Shown here: positions 3,629 through 18,576 of the stretch, piece by piece
How the letters are laid out: each line of letters opens with the position of its first letter
Position numbering within the stretch: the first letter of the stretch is position 1
IMG/VR virus record: IMGVR_UViG_3300027833_000263
Location: 1-20,477 of that record
Reading direction: 5' to 3' (one strand)
Length of the DNA: 20,477 nt
DNA from: a virus
Notes under the pieces: generated by a model
What the model saw: the letters and a program-made list of their open reading frames with translations, nothing else
What the model was told of the DNA's origin: nothing
Databases searched by the model: none
Translations under genes and position numbers: made by a program

Positions 3629-3802
3629 TTATTTCGCCTTCAGTTGATTCTGAAGTTTAATTACTACATCTGCCAGCAAAAGTACATCTTTTCCGTCGAA
3701 ACTACAATCATGTAGCGTCTTTAAAATAAATGTGAGCTCTTGCTGGGTCAGAGTGTCAGTGGTAACCCCACCGACAGCCCTGCCCTTACCAAGAATAGAC
3801 AT
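3629..3802 (-). CDS. Small conserved protein MSILGKGRAVGG... (57 aa)
   Basis: ATG at 3800-3802, stop TAA at 3629-3631, giving 57 residues. The start overlaps the stop of the 464-aa fibre gene by one base (TAATG), which supports real translation. The sequence has a glycine-rich head (MSILGKGRAVGGVTTDTL) and a helical body (QQELTFILKTLHDCSFDG, then DVLLLADVVIKLQNQLKAK). The G-K-G-x-A-V-G-G ... L-T-x-Q-E-L ... L-K-T-L layout recurs in small marine phage proteins next to fibre genes. No function is known to me. Confidence 0.7.
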   Translation of the reverse strand: MSILGKGRAVGGVTTDTLTQQELTFILKTLHDCSFDGKDVLLLADVVIKLQNQLKAK

Positions 3803-12668: not shown

Positions 12669-12876
<208 letters not shown>

Positions 12877-14677: not shown

Positions 14678-15156
14678 ATAACCTTATAGTGAATCCCTTT
14701 AGAGTCTCTGTAGGCTCTCTTCACTTGTTTTCTGTTAGCTGGCTGGTTCGGAGCGTAAGCCCCCTCGTTTTTGTATGACACATGAACCCAGTCTGGAGAG
14801 TCGTCATCGCCGAACTCCCAGATCAGCTGATCGAATATAAGGTTCTCTTTAATGAATCTAAACAACTCTCTATTGGTTACCTTACCGTATACATCGGCAT
14901 CGATATCCAAAGCCTGCCCTGATTTATGCTGAGAGTACTTACTCCCTCCTATAGCCTTATTTAATTCTTTACATCTAAACCCAGATGATATATATAAAGG
15001 AACTCCGAAGTGATCTCTTAAGGGTTGGAACACTTCTTCAGCAATAGCTCTAAGGTTCTTAATGTCGAATTCTTCAGGGCTGTTATCTATCCCCAGGCGG
15101 TTTGCCGTATTTGATTTCGTTACTTCCTTTAGGGTGAGGTTTTTGCTTAGCTTCAT
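14674..15156 (-). CDS. M15-family zinc D,D-carboxypeptidase-like peptidase
   Basis: This 160-residue protein matches the peptidase M15A domain throughout: an N-terminal LTLKEVTKSNTANRLGIDN, FQPLRDHFGVPLYISSGFRC (about 43-62), the zinc motif SQHKSGQALDID (75-86) and DWVHVSY (122-128). H77, D84 and H125 are the expected zinc ligands, and E114 in LIWEFG or D122 may act in catalysis. Such enzymes cut peptide cross-links in peptidoglycan, as endolysins or as virion enzymes that open the cell wall. It has no signal peptide. Together with the GH19-like enzyme at 16.7-17.5 kb this gives the phage both a glycan- and a peptide-cutting activity. Its 3' end overlaps that of the convergent plus-strand gene by four bases. 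Confidence 0.9.
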   Translation of the reverse strand: MKLSKNLTLKEVTKSNTANRLGIDNSPEEFDIKNLRAIAEEVFQPLRDHFGVPLYISSGFRCKELNKAIGGSKYSQHKSGQALDIDADVYGKVTNRELFRFIKENLIFDQLIWEFGDDDSPDWVHVSYKNEGAYAPNQPANRKQVKRAYRDSKGIHYKVI

Positions 15157-15841: not shown

Positions 15842-16399
15842 TCACAAACCCATAGATTTTCTTAATGCAATCTCGGCTTGAGTAAGCTCACCCTGTGGGG
15901 TGTTCTCAAGTATCATGCCTGGTTGTCGTCTTGGAGCTGGTCCCTTTTTATTTTTCATGTAATCGAGAAACTCTTGCTCAAACTGTCTGTTCTGGTCGAA
16001 TCTAGTATTAGCCCCAGACATAGCGTCTTTCAAGGTAGGTCTTCTATCACCAGTACGCATTCCACCGATCATAGATTCGTTCATATAATTGGCTCCAAGA
16101 CCCTCTGGCATCAAGGATGTTGGGATCGCCATACTCTTTCCCTGACTCCTGATCATCATCCTCAATTCAGATGGCGACAACCTTTCCCCTTTGTATTCTT
16201 CATGATAAAGGGGGTTTCCGTTACCTCTCGTTCTATATTTCAGATATTCTTGGAATTCAGGACTGTTTGGGTCAACGTCTGGGTTGCCTTCTACAGGGCC
16301 TCCGTCCTCATAATTCGTTACCTTACCACCGTTCATATATGACTCAATCATCTTATAGAGATCGGCCTGACCACCCCGATTGTACCTAGCTGCTTTCAT
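15842..16399 (-). CDS. Phage protein with GG-V motifs, unknown function
   Basis: The ATG at 16397-16399 gives 185 residues. An upstream in-frame ATG would add 49 residues but runs through the promoter and the preceding gene, so it is rejected. The N-terminus has MKAARYNRGGQADLYKMIE, then YMNGGKVTNYEDGGPVEGNP and PEFQEYLKYRTRGNGNPLY. G-G-x-V repeats with tyrosine are common in marine phage virion proteins, and the endolysin has a related stretch (YAAGGRVDGNPPKGPGNPP). The rest is polar with segments SPSELRMMIRSQGKSMAIP and RFDQNRQFEQEFLDYMKN. It is probably virion-associated. The start codon lies four bases from a TATATTTG box, predicting a leaderless message. Confidence 0.7.
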   Translation of the reverse strand: MKAARYNRGGQADLYKMIESYMNGGKVTNYEDGGPVEGNPDVDPNSPEFQEYLKYRTRGNGNPLYHEEYKGERLSPSELRMMIRSQGKSMAIPTSLMPEGLGANYMNESMIGGMRTGDRRPTLKDAMSGANTRFDQNRQFEQEFLDYMKNKKGPAPRRQPGMILENTPQGELTQAEIALRKSMGL

Positions 16400-16403
16400 A
16401 GTG

Positions 16404-16411
16404 CAAATATA
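16404..16411 (-). promoter_or_regulatory. -7 box TATATTTG four bases before an ATG
   Basis: Minus-strand TATATTTG-CACT-ATG in the 19-base gap between the HNH-like gene and the 185-aa gene. Same spacing as at 1222-1229 and 17804-17811. Confidence 0.75.
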
Positions 16412-16418
16412 ATGATTT

Positions 16419-16658
16419 TTATTTCTTTTTTTTAAGCCACCCTTTAAGCCTGCTCTTCTCTCTACGGCCTCGGTTAGTAGACTGTCCCTCCATCTTTGTA
16501 CTCCCGTCGGCCTGGTGAGATACATCAAGGCCATCTCCGTTACCATACGTACCCGCCTCCCTGTTCTTCCGATTGAGATCCACCCTATAAGCGATCTTTT
16601 CTGGTGAAGACTGAAACTTCTTGTACTCGTCTTTATAGTCTCTTTTCTTGGCTCTCAT
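16419..16658 (-). CDS. Small basic HNH-like phage protein
   Basis: A 79-residue, very basic protein with SSPEKIAYRVDLNRKNREAG, then GNGDGLDVSHQADGST and EGQSTNRGRREKSR and a poly-lysine end. The order of a helix, G-D-G-x-D-V-x-H, a short loop and S-x-N-R-x-R-R resembles a widespread small phage protein of HNH-like fold (G-D-G-K-D-V-D-H ... S-K-N-R-S). Here several nuclease residues are altered, so it may bind DNA without cutting it. Its ATG overlaps the endolysin stop as ATGA, so the two genes are coupled. Confidence 0.65.
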   Translation of the reverse strand: MRAKKRDYKDEYKKFQSSPEKIAYRVDLNRKNREAGTYGNGDGLDVSHQADGSTKMEGQSTNRGRREKSRLKGWLKKKK

Positions 16659-17503
16659 TCTTCGAGACGCTTGGTATATCTATCCATCTTGCGAAGCCCT
16701 TGACGCCCTACTGGGTACGAGCGAGGATCTTTACCTCCAGATACCTGAGAGGCAACGAGCAGATTGTTGTCTTCTTGAGACATATCCTCTGTATTAATAT
16801 CATACCCATACTTCTCTATTAGCCTGTTTAAAGTACTGTCTTTATTTCTCTTTAAAAACCATGTAGACACCTGCTCAGCATATTCTGGCTGAGTAACTAG
16901 ACTAGGATTCTTTACTAATCTGTCATCCCCGAAAAGATCTTCAGAGGCTTTAGCGTAGTTAGCTTTACCTGTCAGCTGAATAGGCCCCCTCCCTCTATAC
17001 ATATAACCGTCTCCACGCTCTGTGTTGCCAAGGTTTTTCTCCCCATATTCGCCTCCATAGGCAGCATTAAAGAGCGCTTCTGGATTTCTTTTAAGCTGTC
17101 TTACCCCCTTGTTTGTATACCCTTGCGCTTTTAAACGAGGAAAGACTTCGTTAATCCTAGAGGCCGACTTGTAGTACCCGTCTTCCTCTTTTTCTCTTAT
17201 TCTCCCAGACTCTTTATCCATTGCCGCCTCTACAGAGTTGTAGTATTTATTAGTAGCCTCAGGGAACCTATTTTTCATAGTAGGATCTTCTTCCTGCGTA
17301 ACAAACGCCTCATCGAGAAGAATTGTGTCAGGAGGAATTACAGGAGGATTACCAGGGCCTTTTGGAGGATTTCCGTCTACTCTACCCCCTGCTGCATATT
17401 TCTGCGGCGCTGTCTCAAAGCCCTCTAAAAACTTCAACAGATCGGCTGTGCTTATCTGCTTGTGACGAGACGGAGATGGTTTCTTTTTCGTTATTGCTCT
17501 CAT
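16655..17503 (-). CDS. GH19-like endolysin (chitinase/lysozyme fold)
   Basis: A 282-residue protein. Residues 1-75 are a basic, then proline- and glycine-rich region (FLEGFETAPQKYAAGGRVDG, NPPKGPGNPPVIPPDT) unlike usual endolysins. The catalytic domain follows: AAMDKESGRIREKEEDGYY at 93-111, with E98 as catalytic acid candidate where GH19 enzymes usually have H-E-S-G, then EVFPRLKAQGYT, PEALFNAAYGG and the GH19 signature YRGRGPIQLTGKANY (169-183). The end has SLVTQPEYAEQVSTWFLKRN. Phage GH19 enzymes hydrolyse peptidoglycan glycan. The histidine before E98 is replaced by lysine. There is no signal peptide. The N-terminal GG-V-D-G-N-P element is shared with the 185-aa protein, so it may be a virion-associated hydrolase and not only a lysin. 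Its start follows a TGATATG junction. Confidence 0.85.
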   Translation of the reverse strand: MRAITKKKPSPSRHKQISTADLLKFLEGFETAPQKYAAGGRVDGNPPKGPGNPPVIPPDTILLDEAFVTQEEDPTMKNRFPEATNKYYNSVEAAMDKESGRIREKEEDGYYKSASRINEVFPRLKAQGYTNKGVRQLKRNPEALFNAAYGGEYGEKNLGNTERGDGYMYRGRGPIQLTGKANYAKASEDLFGDDRLVKNPSLVTQPEYAEQVSTWFLKRNKDSTLNRLIEKYGYDINTEDMSQEDNNLLVASQVSGGKDPRSYPVGRQGLRKMDRYTKRLEE

Positions 17504-17504
17504 A

Positions 17505-17573
17505 TCACTTACAGCTGCAAAGGTTGACGTTAGCTAAAGAGCAAATAGCACAGATGGATTCTTCTTTTCTCAT
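17505..17573 (-). CDS. 22-aa four-cysteine microprotein
   Basis: ATG at 17571-17573, stop TGA at 17505-17507. The product has cysteines at 8, 11, 19 and 21 (C-x2-C-x7-C-x-C), starting MRKEESICAICSLANVN. Both its junctions are the same: the upstream stop and its ATG form TGATATG, and its own stop and the endolysin ATG form TGATATG again. Without it the two larger genes would be 71 bases apart in an arm where most gaps are under 20 bases. The four cysteines could hold one zinc ion. No homologue is known to me. Confidence 0.5.
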   Translation of the reverse strand: MRKEESICAICSLANVNLCSCK

Positions 17574-17574
17574 A

Positions 17575-17799
17575 TCAGTTGTTTTTTAAAAGAACTTTTT
17601 TAACGGACTTAATTGTATCTTTTTTTCTTTTAAAGGCTTCCTTTACGTTCTTTTTAGCTTGAGACTTTTGACCTTCAAAAATAAAACCTCCAGACTTGTC
17701 GTAAGATCTAATTGTTTTTTTTCCGACTTTCTTTTCAGTACGGGCTCTCTCCATTTGATCCCTAGCTGTTTGCCGTATTTGCTTTTTTACTGCCTTCAT
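17575..17799 (-). CDS. Very basic small protein at the head of the late arm (74 aa)
   Basis: A 74-residue protein with about a third Lys plus Arg: KKQIRQTARDQMERARTEKK, then TIRSYDKSGGFIFEGQKSQA and KRKKDTIKSVKKVLLKN. The helical, charged flanks around a short glycine-containing centre suggest nucleic acid or capsid-interior binding, but no family is recognised. It is the first gene of the leftward late arm, transcribed from a TATCTTTG box that lies only four bases from its ATG. It is followed by the microprotein and the endolysin in a coupled chain. Confidence 0.68.
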   Translation of the reverse strand: MKAVKKQIRQTARDQMERARTEKKVGKKTIRSYDKSGGFIFEGQKSQAKKNVKEAFKRKKDTIKSVKKVLLKNN

Positions 17800-17803
17800 A
17801 TTA

Positions 17804-17811
17804 CAAAGATA
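17804..17811 (-). promoter_or_regulatory. -7 box TATCTTTG four bases before the first late-arm ATG
   Basis: Minus-strand TATCTTTG-TAAT-ATG. It matches TAnnTTTG. This is the leftmost edge of the large gene-free region and drives the lysis block. Confidence 0.68.
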
Positions 17812-18366
17812 AACAAAGAAGCTTATATGCTTTCTTGTGTTTAAACCCTAAAAACTAAGAGGACAGTCTTTGCGCCACCACAACATTAAGCTACTTTGTC
17901 TCTGCGTTTACGCCATAATGCCCAATTGGGTTTATGTGCTCAGGAGTGTCGTTCCTAATTTGCTTTAGCGAAGGTACAACAAAAAAACTACAAAGTCAAG
18001 CCCCAAATGCATATGTGTAAAATTATTTTTTCGACTACTATAAGCCTTAATGACAGCCTATGATCAGATCGCAATACGCAAACCCCGTGGCCCAACGCAA
18101 AAAAGCCCAGTAATACAGAGTTTGGGGATTATGTATAGTTACACGCGATGCGCACACGTACCCGAAACGTATCCGCCCGACCCCGTACCGCGCATGTATC
18201 GTGCGATGCCGCATACATTTCAGCTTTAGGTAACAGCAGTCAACCTGTTGTAAAGCAGTGAGTTACCGACGTTGATTAAAGTAGCTGTTGAAGTAGGCTA
18301 GGCTAAGTAGCAGTATTCCAAGGCAGGACAATCCCTCACCTAACCCTATGCTCGACCTCCAGCCTT

Positions 18367-18389
18367 CACACATGCATGCGCATACACAC
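18367..18389. repeat. 23-base alternating pyrimidine-purine tract
   Basis: From c18367 to c18389 every base alternates pyrimidine and purine (CA, TG and CG steps), followed by a run of six C. Such tracts can adopt Z-form DNA under negative supercoiling. A second alternating run of 14 bases is at 18148-18161. Confidence 0.8.
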
Positions 18390-18395
18390 CCCCCT

Positions 18396-18455
18396 CATGA
18401 CATACACATGACATGTACATGCCTGATCGCAGCTGCGGATTTCGCGTGATTTCGC
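18396..18455. repeat. Cluster of short direct repeats and palindromes
   Basis: CATGACAT occurs at 18396-18403 and 18407-18414, CATGTACATG (18412-18421) and CGCAGCTGCG (18428-18437) are perfect 10-bp palindromes, and GATTTCGC occurs at 18438-18445 and 18448-18455, one helical turn apart. Spaced like protein-binding sites, these could be iterons or operators for the early promoter 50 bases further on. Confidence 0.7.
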
Positions 18456-18505
18456 ACTTGCATTATGCACAGGAAAATGGCAGGTGAAATCAGTTCCATC
18501 AAAAT

Positions 18506-18537
18506 TTGGGATTACGCTTTTCGTCGCCGTATCTTTG
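18506..18537 (+). promoter_or_regulatory. Early promoter, TTG-N21-TATCTTTG
   Basis: TTG at 18506-18508 and TATCTTTG at 18530-18537 with a 21-base spacer fit the Bacteroidetes primary-sigma consensus at both elements. It reads rightward, 39 bases before the ATG of the H1-like gene. Confidence 0.85.
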
Positions 18538-18541
18538 TGGC

Positions 18542-18572
18542 TCAGCAATTCCGCTGAAATCTAAATCTCTTA
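18542..18572 (+). promoter_or_regulatory. Early leader: 5' hairpin plus AAATCTCTTA element
   Basis: TCAGC (18542-18546) pairs with GCTGA (18553-18557) near the predicted 5' end, and AAATCTCTTA (18563-18572) ends four bases before the ATG. The same order is found in the leader at 19503-19535. Confidence 0.5.
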
Positions 18573-18576
18573 CGTC

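Follow-up and report, generated by a model that had tools for sequence, protein, structure and literature searches.

A four-cysteine frame of 22 codons, kept among changing neighbours in flavobacterial-type phages, is likely a translated gene

A 22-codon frame with four cysteines, here named p22, is likely, as judged from comparison of its sequences, to be a genuine translated gene. It was identified in a viral DNA of 20,477 nucleotides (IMG/VR record IMGVR_UViG_3300027833_000263, positions 1 to 20,477), which we refer to in its entirety as the window. Together with nine further IMG/VR contigs this makes ten contigs that carry p22, with 22–23 codons and four cysteines in all of them. The comparative support for p22 is good: the frame and its cysteines are kept as the neighbouring genes are exchanged, and in some phages the frame lies directly behind a promoter. 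Zinc binding by the peptide is plausible, and p22 is filed here as a putative new, narrowly distributed family of phage microproteins. A gene of 22 codons is easily missed by gene calling. Should p22 prove to bind zinc, it would rank with the smallest metal-binding proteins found in nature, and as a synthetic peptide it would be easy to study.

The p22 frame in the window

An earlier note on this DNA had described a 22-codon four-cysteine frame between a basic 74-aa gene and an endolysin, with TGATATG at both of its ends. Both points are borne out: the frame reads from the sequence as described, and the two TGATATG motifs are found at 17577 and 17507. The features of this part of the window are the following.

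17804..17811, minus strand: promoter box TATCTTTG, exactly 4 nt ahead of the ATG of p74
17575..17799, minus strand: p74, a basic 74-aa gene upstream of p22, with relatives in L003 (96%), L071 (59%) and L018 (57%)
17571..17577, minus strand: TGATATG joint, made of the p74 stop, one base and the p22 start; a real stop-start in only two of the ten contigs
17505..17573, minus strand: p22, an ATG-started frame of 22 codons, MRKEESICAICSLANVNLCSCK, with C-x2-C-x7-C-x-C; the frame has relatives in nine further contigs
17501..17507, minus strand: TGATATG joint, made of the p22 stop, one base and the start of the 282-aa endolysin-like gene
16655..17503, minus strand: 282-aa endolysin-like gene downstream of p22, matching the PHROG endolysins phrog_181 (E 1.7e-28)
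16419..16658, minus strand: p79, a 79-aa gene after the endolysin-like gene, matching phrog_6437 of unknown function (E 1.8e-14)

The cysteines of the 22-aa peptide are C8, C11, C19 and C21 (C8-x2-C11-x7-C19-x-C21). The minus strand of the window has three TGATATG motifs (17577, 17507 and 4978) and the plus strand none. The match of the 282-aa gene to Pfam GH19 is weak (E 4e-5) and falls short of the GH19 cut-off, and a search of the viral collection found no relative of its protein.

Some minor observations were made around these genes. The 234-aa ORF at 15842–16546 of the window probably starts later than called, with an ATG at about 16399, downstream of the overlap with p79. Its codons for HYICTM spell TATATTTG, followed by 4 nt and then ATG, which is a leaderless-type spacing, and the same letters occur in L003. 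Close to the start of p74, some 40 bases (17758–17796) share 83% identity with 15089–15129 within the M15 peptidase ORF, a similarity that may be due to chance (E 2.7e-4). The divergent intergenic region upstream of p74 (17800–18576) is partly conserved before p22 or p98 elsewhere, though the first gene differs, and within that conserved part AAACACAAGAAAGCATATA precedes the promoter box.

Relatives of p22 and the phage group

The search with the p74 protein led to L003 and that with the terminase to 80 loci; among those 81 loci, p22 was found by tblastn in three (L003, L005 and L061). A DNA pattern consisting of the cysteines and a few other codons was run against the viral collection and matched nine contigs, all nine of which are true members. 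Because this pattern itself asks for cysteines, more weight is given to the searches that are blind to them, and these reach all nine of the other contigs: seven through the 162-aa neighbour gene, L061 through the terminase and L087 through the promoter pattern. For the 162-aa gene, the one downstream of p22 in L003, 29 loci were found, and seven of these have an intact p22 directly upstream. One other locus, L230, starts inside the gene, with no upstream sequence visible, and in the remaining 21 of the 29 neither p22 nor a recognisable remnant of it was found within 160 nt upstream. With p79 as the anchor at least 80 loci were obtained; among the matches listed, which leave out the p22-bearing L003 contig, only L317 (the same contig as L061) has p22.

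Each of nine contigs checked has one copy of p22, and the genes of L085 and L086 are identical. In L018 and L071, which carry relatives of p74, p22 is absent. A tblastn search of all collected loci with both forms of the peptide recovered the family with E values no higher than 4e-5 and gave no broken copy; the next match, from the bacterial scan at E 0.021, is a chance one. Neither a broken frame nor changed cysteines next to conserved flanking genes, which the earlier note had named as what would speak against p22, was found in the relatives. Where the p22 frame is missing, the whole frame is missing.

The closest named phages by terminase are Flavobacterium, Maribacter and related phages, to which the window terminase is 40–47% identical. 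The window resembles Elemovirus and other Flavobacteriaceae phages in the order of M15-type peptidase, GroES, terminase and portal, as annotated in an Elemovirus, and differs from them in p22 and p74, for which there is no match in the named phage collection. A flavobacterial-type phage with a host among the Bacteroidetes would fit the window, because the promoters are of the TAnnTTTG kind. Excerpts of PMC6847099 describe Bacteroidetes mRNAs as lacking Shine-Dalgarno sequences, with Kozak-like adenines being of importance. A tRNA gene was also located by Rfam near the terminase (12669–12742, minus strand).

Changing neighbours

Three arrangements are seen upstream of p22, and three different genes downstream. 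In six contigs (L084–L088 and L091) a promoter immediately precedes it, in two (the window and L090, which is the L003 contig) it comes after p74, and in another two (L089 and L092) an unrelated 98-aa gene ends 16 nt ahead of it. The gene that follows is the 282-aa endolysin-like gene in one contig, the 162-aa gene in seven and the 79-aa gene in one, the last being the L061 contig, where p79 comes directly after p22. The 162-aa gene has no match in Pfam or PHROGs. The L086 locus ends soon after p22, and its 162-aa gene was seen through L231, which is the same contig. In L087 p22 has its own promoter and is followed by the promoter box TATATTTG and a separate gene, with no coupled gene downstream. 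Despite these changes of neighbours, the open frame, start and stop of p22 are kept in all ten contigs. The arrangements place p22 as a small module at a fixed position, the head of the operon, and it looks like an exchangeable module that heads a lysis-side operon.

Coding evidence

All seven variants of p22 keep M1, R2, C8, C11, L13, A14, N15, L18, C19 and C21, and the sole indel among them is one whole codon. The second and fourth cysteine codons swap between TGT and TGC, a synonymous change that leaves the residue as it is. The comparison of synonymous with non-synonymous changes, which the earlier note had recommended, gave a divided answer on purifying selection. Between the window and L084, pS (0.53) exceeds pN (0.18), whereas in several close pairs the changes are wholly or mostly non-synonymous: there are none synonymous and three non-synonymous between the window and L090, none and two between L089 and L090, and pN exceeds pS between L087 and L088. 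From its sequence, L088 looks like a recombinant of the two p22 forms.

In a simulation with sixteen random substitutions, the frame and the four cysteines both survived with P 0.007; the count of amino-acid changes in p22 alone is not significantly low (P 0.088). As RNA, the 69-nt gene folds less than its shuffles (z +2.26), and three longer or related p22 stretches gave z values of +1.68, +2.15 and +0.53 against shuffles. The only Rfam match in the window is the tRNA elsewhere in it. A structured-RNA reading of p22 was rejected on the grounds that the gene folds less than shuffles and that Rfam gives only this tRNA. Translation of p22 is made very likely by the retention of the frame and cysteines, the outcome of the simulation, the unstructured RNA and the change of neighbours taken together. 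The proposal that the frame is translated thus finds support in the conservation of frame and cysteines while the neighbours change.

Stop-start junctions

The letters at the start of p22 are TGATATGAG in seven of the ten contigs, TAATATGAG in two and GGGTATGAG in one; the start context of three copies is TAAT (two) or GGGT (one). The stop of an upstream gene coincides with these letters in only two contigs, the window and the L003 contig, and in five others the TGATATG letters follow a promoter, with no gene ending there. At the end of p22 the letters are TGATATG in seven contigs and TGAGATG in two, with no start in one; a 1-nt gap and then ATG follow the p22 stop in nine of the ten. As a true stop-restart at both ends of p22, TGATATG occurs in two of the ten contigs, again the window and the L003 contig.

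To see how common such junctions are, ORFs of 80 aa or more were surveyed in the window and in the loci reached by the terminase and p74 (L003–L083). With ORFs defined mechanically by the first ATG, uncurated, and in loci that are mutually related, 240 distinct close junctions were obtained, 56 with a 1-nt gap (22 TAATATG and 5 TGATATG) and 59 with a 1-nt overlap. A stop-start gap of one nucleotide is an ordinary feature, the house style, of these flavobacterial-type phages. As a check on rarity, micro-ORFs of 12–45 codons were collected from the window and these loci wherever each flank held an ORF of 60 aa or longer at a distance of 0–12 nt. Among the seven distinct micro-ORF peptides, two have 1-nt gaps on both sides, and these are p22 and its L003 relative only. 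The cysteine spacing combined with TGATATG gave 57 stretches in the whole viral collection, six of which belong to the p22 family, and none of the other 51 was accepted as a relative. In one of these 51, L124, an ATG-started frame antisense to a 412-aa ORF is bordered by TGATATG on both sides.

The geometry of p22 is non-random, yet it is the phage group's ordinary way of starting genes, and the observation exceeds chance mainly because the frame is conserved elsewhere. The view that three genes are tiled by stop-restart signals holds for the window and the L003 contig, but not in the sense of a special signal, given its presence in two of the ten contigs and the 56 of 240 junctions with the same gap. 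Likewise, the suggestion that such geometry is hard to expect by chance is right in that it is non-random, and is weakened by the ordinary 1-nt gaps and by L124, which also has TGATATG at both ends. Coupling is described in excerpts of PMC10666635 as needing short overlaps or very short gaps. p22 is like termination-reinitiation pairs in that its next start is within one base of a stop; it is unlike them in that in eight of the ten contigs no gene ends within one base of its own start, a promoter or a 16-nt gap being found instead.

Promoter spacing and leaderless starts

The ATG of p22 lies exactly 4 nt after the TAnnTTTG box TATCTTTG in six of the ten contigs, and that of p74 does likewise in the window. 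For 1007 distinct ORF starts (at least 80 aa), the box is 4 nt away in 44 cases, 5 nt away in four and at any other distance between 0 and 12 nt in one. A second cluster of TAnnTTTG boxes, at 19–20 nt, was noted for 33 of the 1007. In excerpts of PMC9723704, the TAnnTTTG box of Flavobacterium psychrophilum is at −12 to −5, and from that position a spacer of 4 nt brings the A of the ATG to +1. The spacing predicts a leaderless mRNA for p22 and for the genes of the 4-nt cluster in this phage group. The likeness to Flavobacterium-type promoters is in the TAnnTTTG box, the leaderless state of the phage genes being deduced from the spacing, and a difference is that leaderless mRNAs are rare in F. 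psychrophilum (5.5%, in excerpts of PMC9723704). Among the matches listed in a search of the literature on Flavobacterium, Cellulophaga or crAss-like phages, the word leaderless was absent. The sharp 4-nt spacing between promoter and ATG may offer a simple rule for finding leaderless, perhaps tiny, genes in Bacteroidetes phages.

A more tentative, and in our view doubtful, proposal is that the TGATATGAG repeat is a built-in exchange joint and p22 its cargo, which would then be among the smallest free-standing phage metal-binding proteins. The same 8–9 letters would double as the promoter-to-ATG spacer of leaderless genes and as the stop-N-ATG joint, and recombination between copies of the joint could take out or bring in a microgene (p22 or p74, for example) with the promoter, stop and start unharmed. 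Two copies of TGATATGAG flank p22 in the window, as two of TGATATGA flank p74 in the L003 contig, so that recombination between the copies would remove either gene cleanly. Arrangements with and without p74 or p22 are both seen. Shared constraints on starts and stops, rather than repeat-driven exchange, could yield the same repeat picture.

Possible function of p22

We consider it on balance probable that p22 is a head-of-operon module translated into a cytoplasmic, partner-binding peptide of 22–23 aa whose cysteines hold one metal ion, most likely zinc. Directly behind a TAnnTTTG promoter it would be translated from a leaderless mRNA, and behind p74 by stop-restart coupling. The four cysteines would hold the ion in a minimal knuckle, and the peptide would most likely stay in the cytoplasm and, while infection proceeds, bind some larger partner from the host or the phage. 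A metal site, most simply for zinc, is suggested because there are four invariant cysteines in two close pairs (C-x2-C and C-x-C) within 14 residues; the pairs of potential ligands are the same across all variants. Speaking against this reading are the rather hydrophobic core of the peptide (hydropathy 1.07–1.72), its lipobox-like end, the small number and close kinship of the copies, some pairs of which differ by non-synonymous changes only, and the failure to match any known zinc family.

Zinc is not the only use for cysteine pairs of this type, and p22 may be real with its cysteines engaged in redox chemistry, joined in a disulfide, or holding copper or an iron-sulfur cluster instead of structural zinc. 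We regard this as unlikely, although neither a typical zinc-ribbon knuckle such as C-P-x-C-G nor a match to any zinc family was found in p22, since two close cysteine pairs within 14 residues would most simply form a site for one metal.

The end of p22 reads L-C-[GS]-C, which raises the question of whether it is a minimal lipoprotein or membrane peptide, in which residues 7–18 would be a hydrophobic signal, L-C-[GS]-C the lipobox, and the short lipidated end or the signal would act in lysis. All members end in L-C-[GS]-C-[KQ], the hydropathy of the core would suit a signal, p22 adjoins lysis genes, and an ORF of a flavobacterial-type phage (L178/L213) has a lipoprotein-like end, LLCSC. The acidic residues at the start of p22 nevertheless adjoin the hydrophobic part, every member has Asn or Gln right before the box, and cysteines 8 and 11 are left unexplained, all of which makes this reading quite improbable. 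A lipobox regular expression rejects all seven p22 variants but also two of three controls, so it counts for nothing.

Little credence is likewise given to p22 as a leader peptide or coupling frame, of which the translation and not the product would set ribosome loading on the next lysis gene. The start of the next gene one base after the p22 stop in nine of the ten contigs is what such a frame would show, but 1-nt gaps are common between ordinary genes in this group, there is no RNA structure at p22, and the residues of the peptide stay constant before three kinds of downstream gene. A pure leader peptide is disfavoured because p22 is uncoupled in L087, where a new promoter follows, and because the downstream genes are exchanged. 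Finally, that p22 is no gene at all, but a frame left open by chance or a non-coding element that travels with the genes beside it, is barely credible: the copies are indeed few and closely related, and some close pairs differ by non-synonymous changes only, but the frame is constant while the neighbours change on both sides, no copy among the collected loci is broken, the promoter spacing is gene-like, the simulation gave its low P, and the RNA is unstructured.

Similar proteins and other microgenes

No match to p22 was found in Pfam, PHROGs or PDB sequences at E up to 10, searches that are weak for 22 aa, nor by tblastn in named phages, also at E up to 10. Bacterial genomes gave 17 pattern matches, none of which was accepted as a relative. 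The peptide cores ICAICSLANV and CSVCLLANI were not found in the literature searched.

The nearest look-alikes are the zinc-ribbon-like proteins of DUF6171 (PF19668) and phrog_13558, which p22 resembles in being a short phage ORF where a C-x2-C pair is followed further on by a cluster of cysteines. p22 has less than half the length of such proteins and is without the second C-x2-C and the C-terminal CP..KW part. Kinship of the two is unsupported, with a tblastn E of 1.3 and an hhalign profile probability of 0.7%. DUF6171 was not found by name in the literature searched. A 56-aa ORF of the DUF6171/phrog_13558 kind (L308, 350–598) has SLANVKLC, near the SLANVNLC of p22; it reads ...SLANVKLCAKCGC where p22 reads SLANVNLC.GC.

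Phage small proteins (<100 aa) are as a class already well described, according to excerpts of PMC11323111, and p22 is like them in being a tiny phage-encoded product that probably acts through a larger partner. The products named in those excerpts have 51–79 aa, and the excerpted text is without the words zinc, cysteine and smallest.

A second cysteine-rich microgene of 30 aa, MAYGKPKGPRVVKKKCKCGKPKACGCKNSY, was noted at 3745–3837 of L008 and 3969–4061 of L222. It has no family match, is identical in these two sister contigs, and fits between ORFs of 136 and 62 aa, from which it is separated by 3 and 1 nt.
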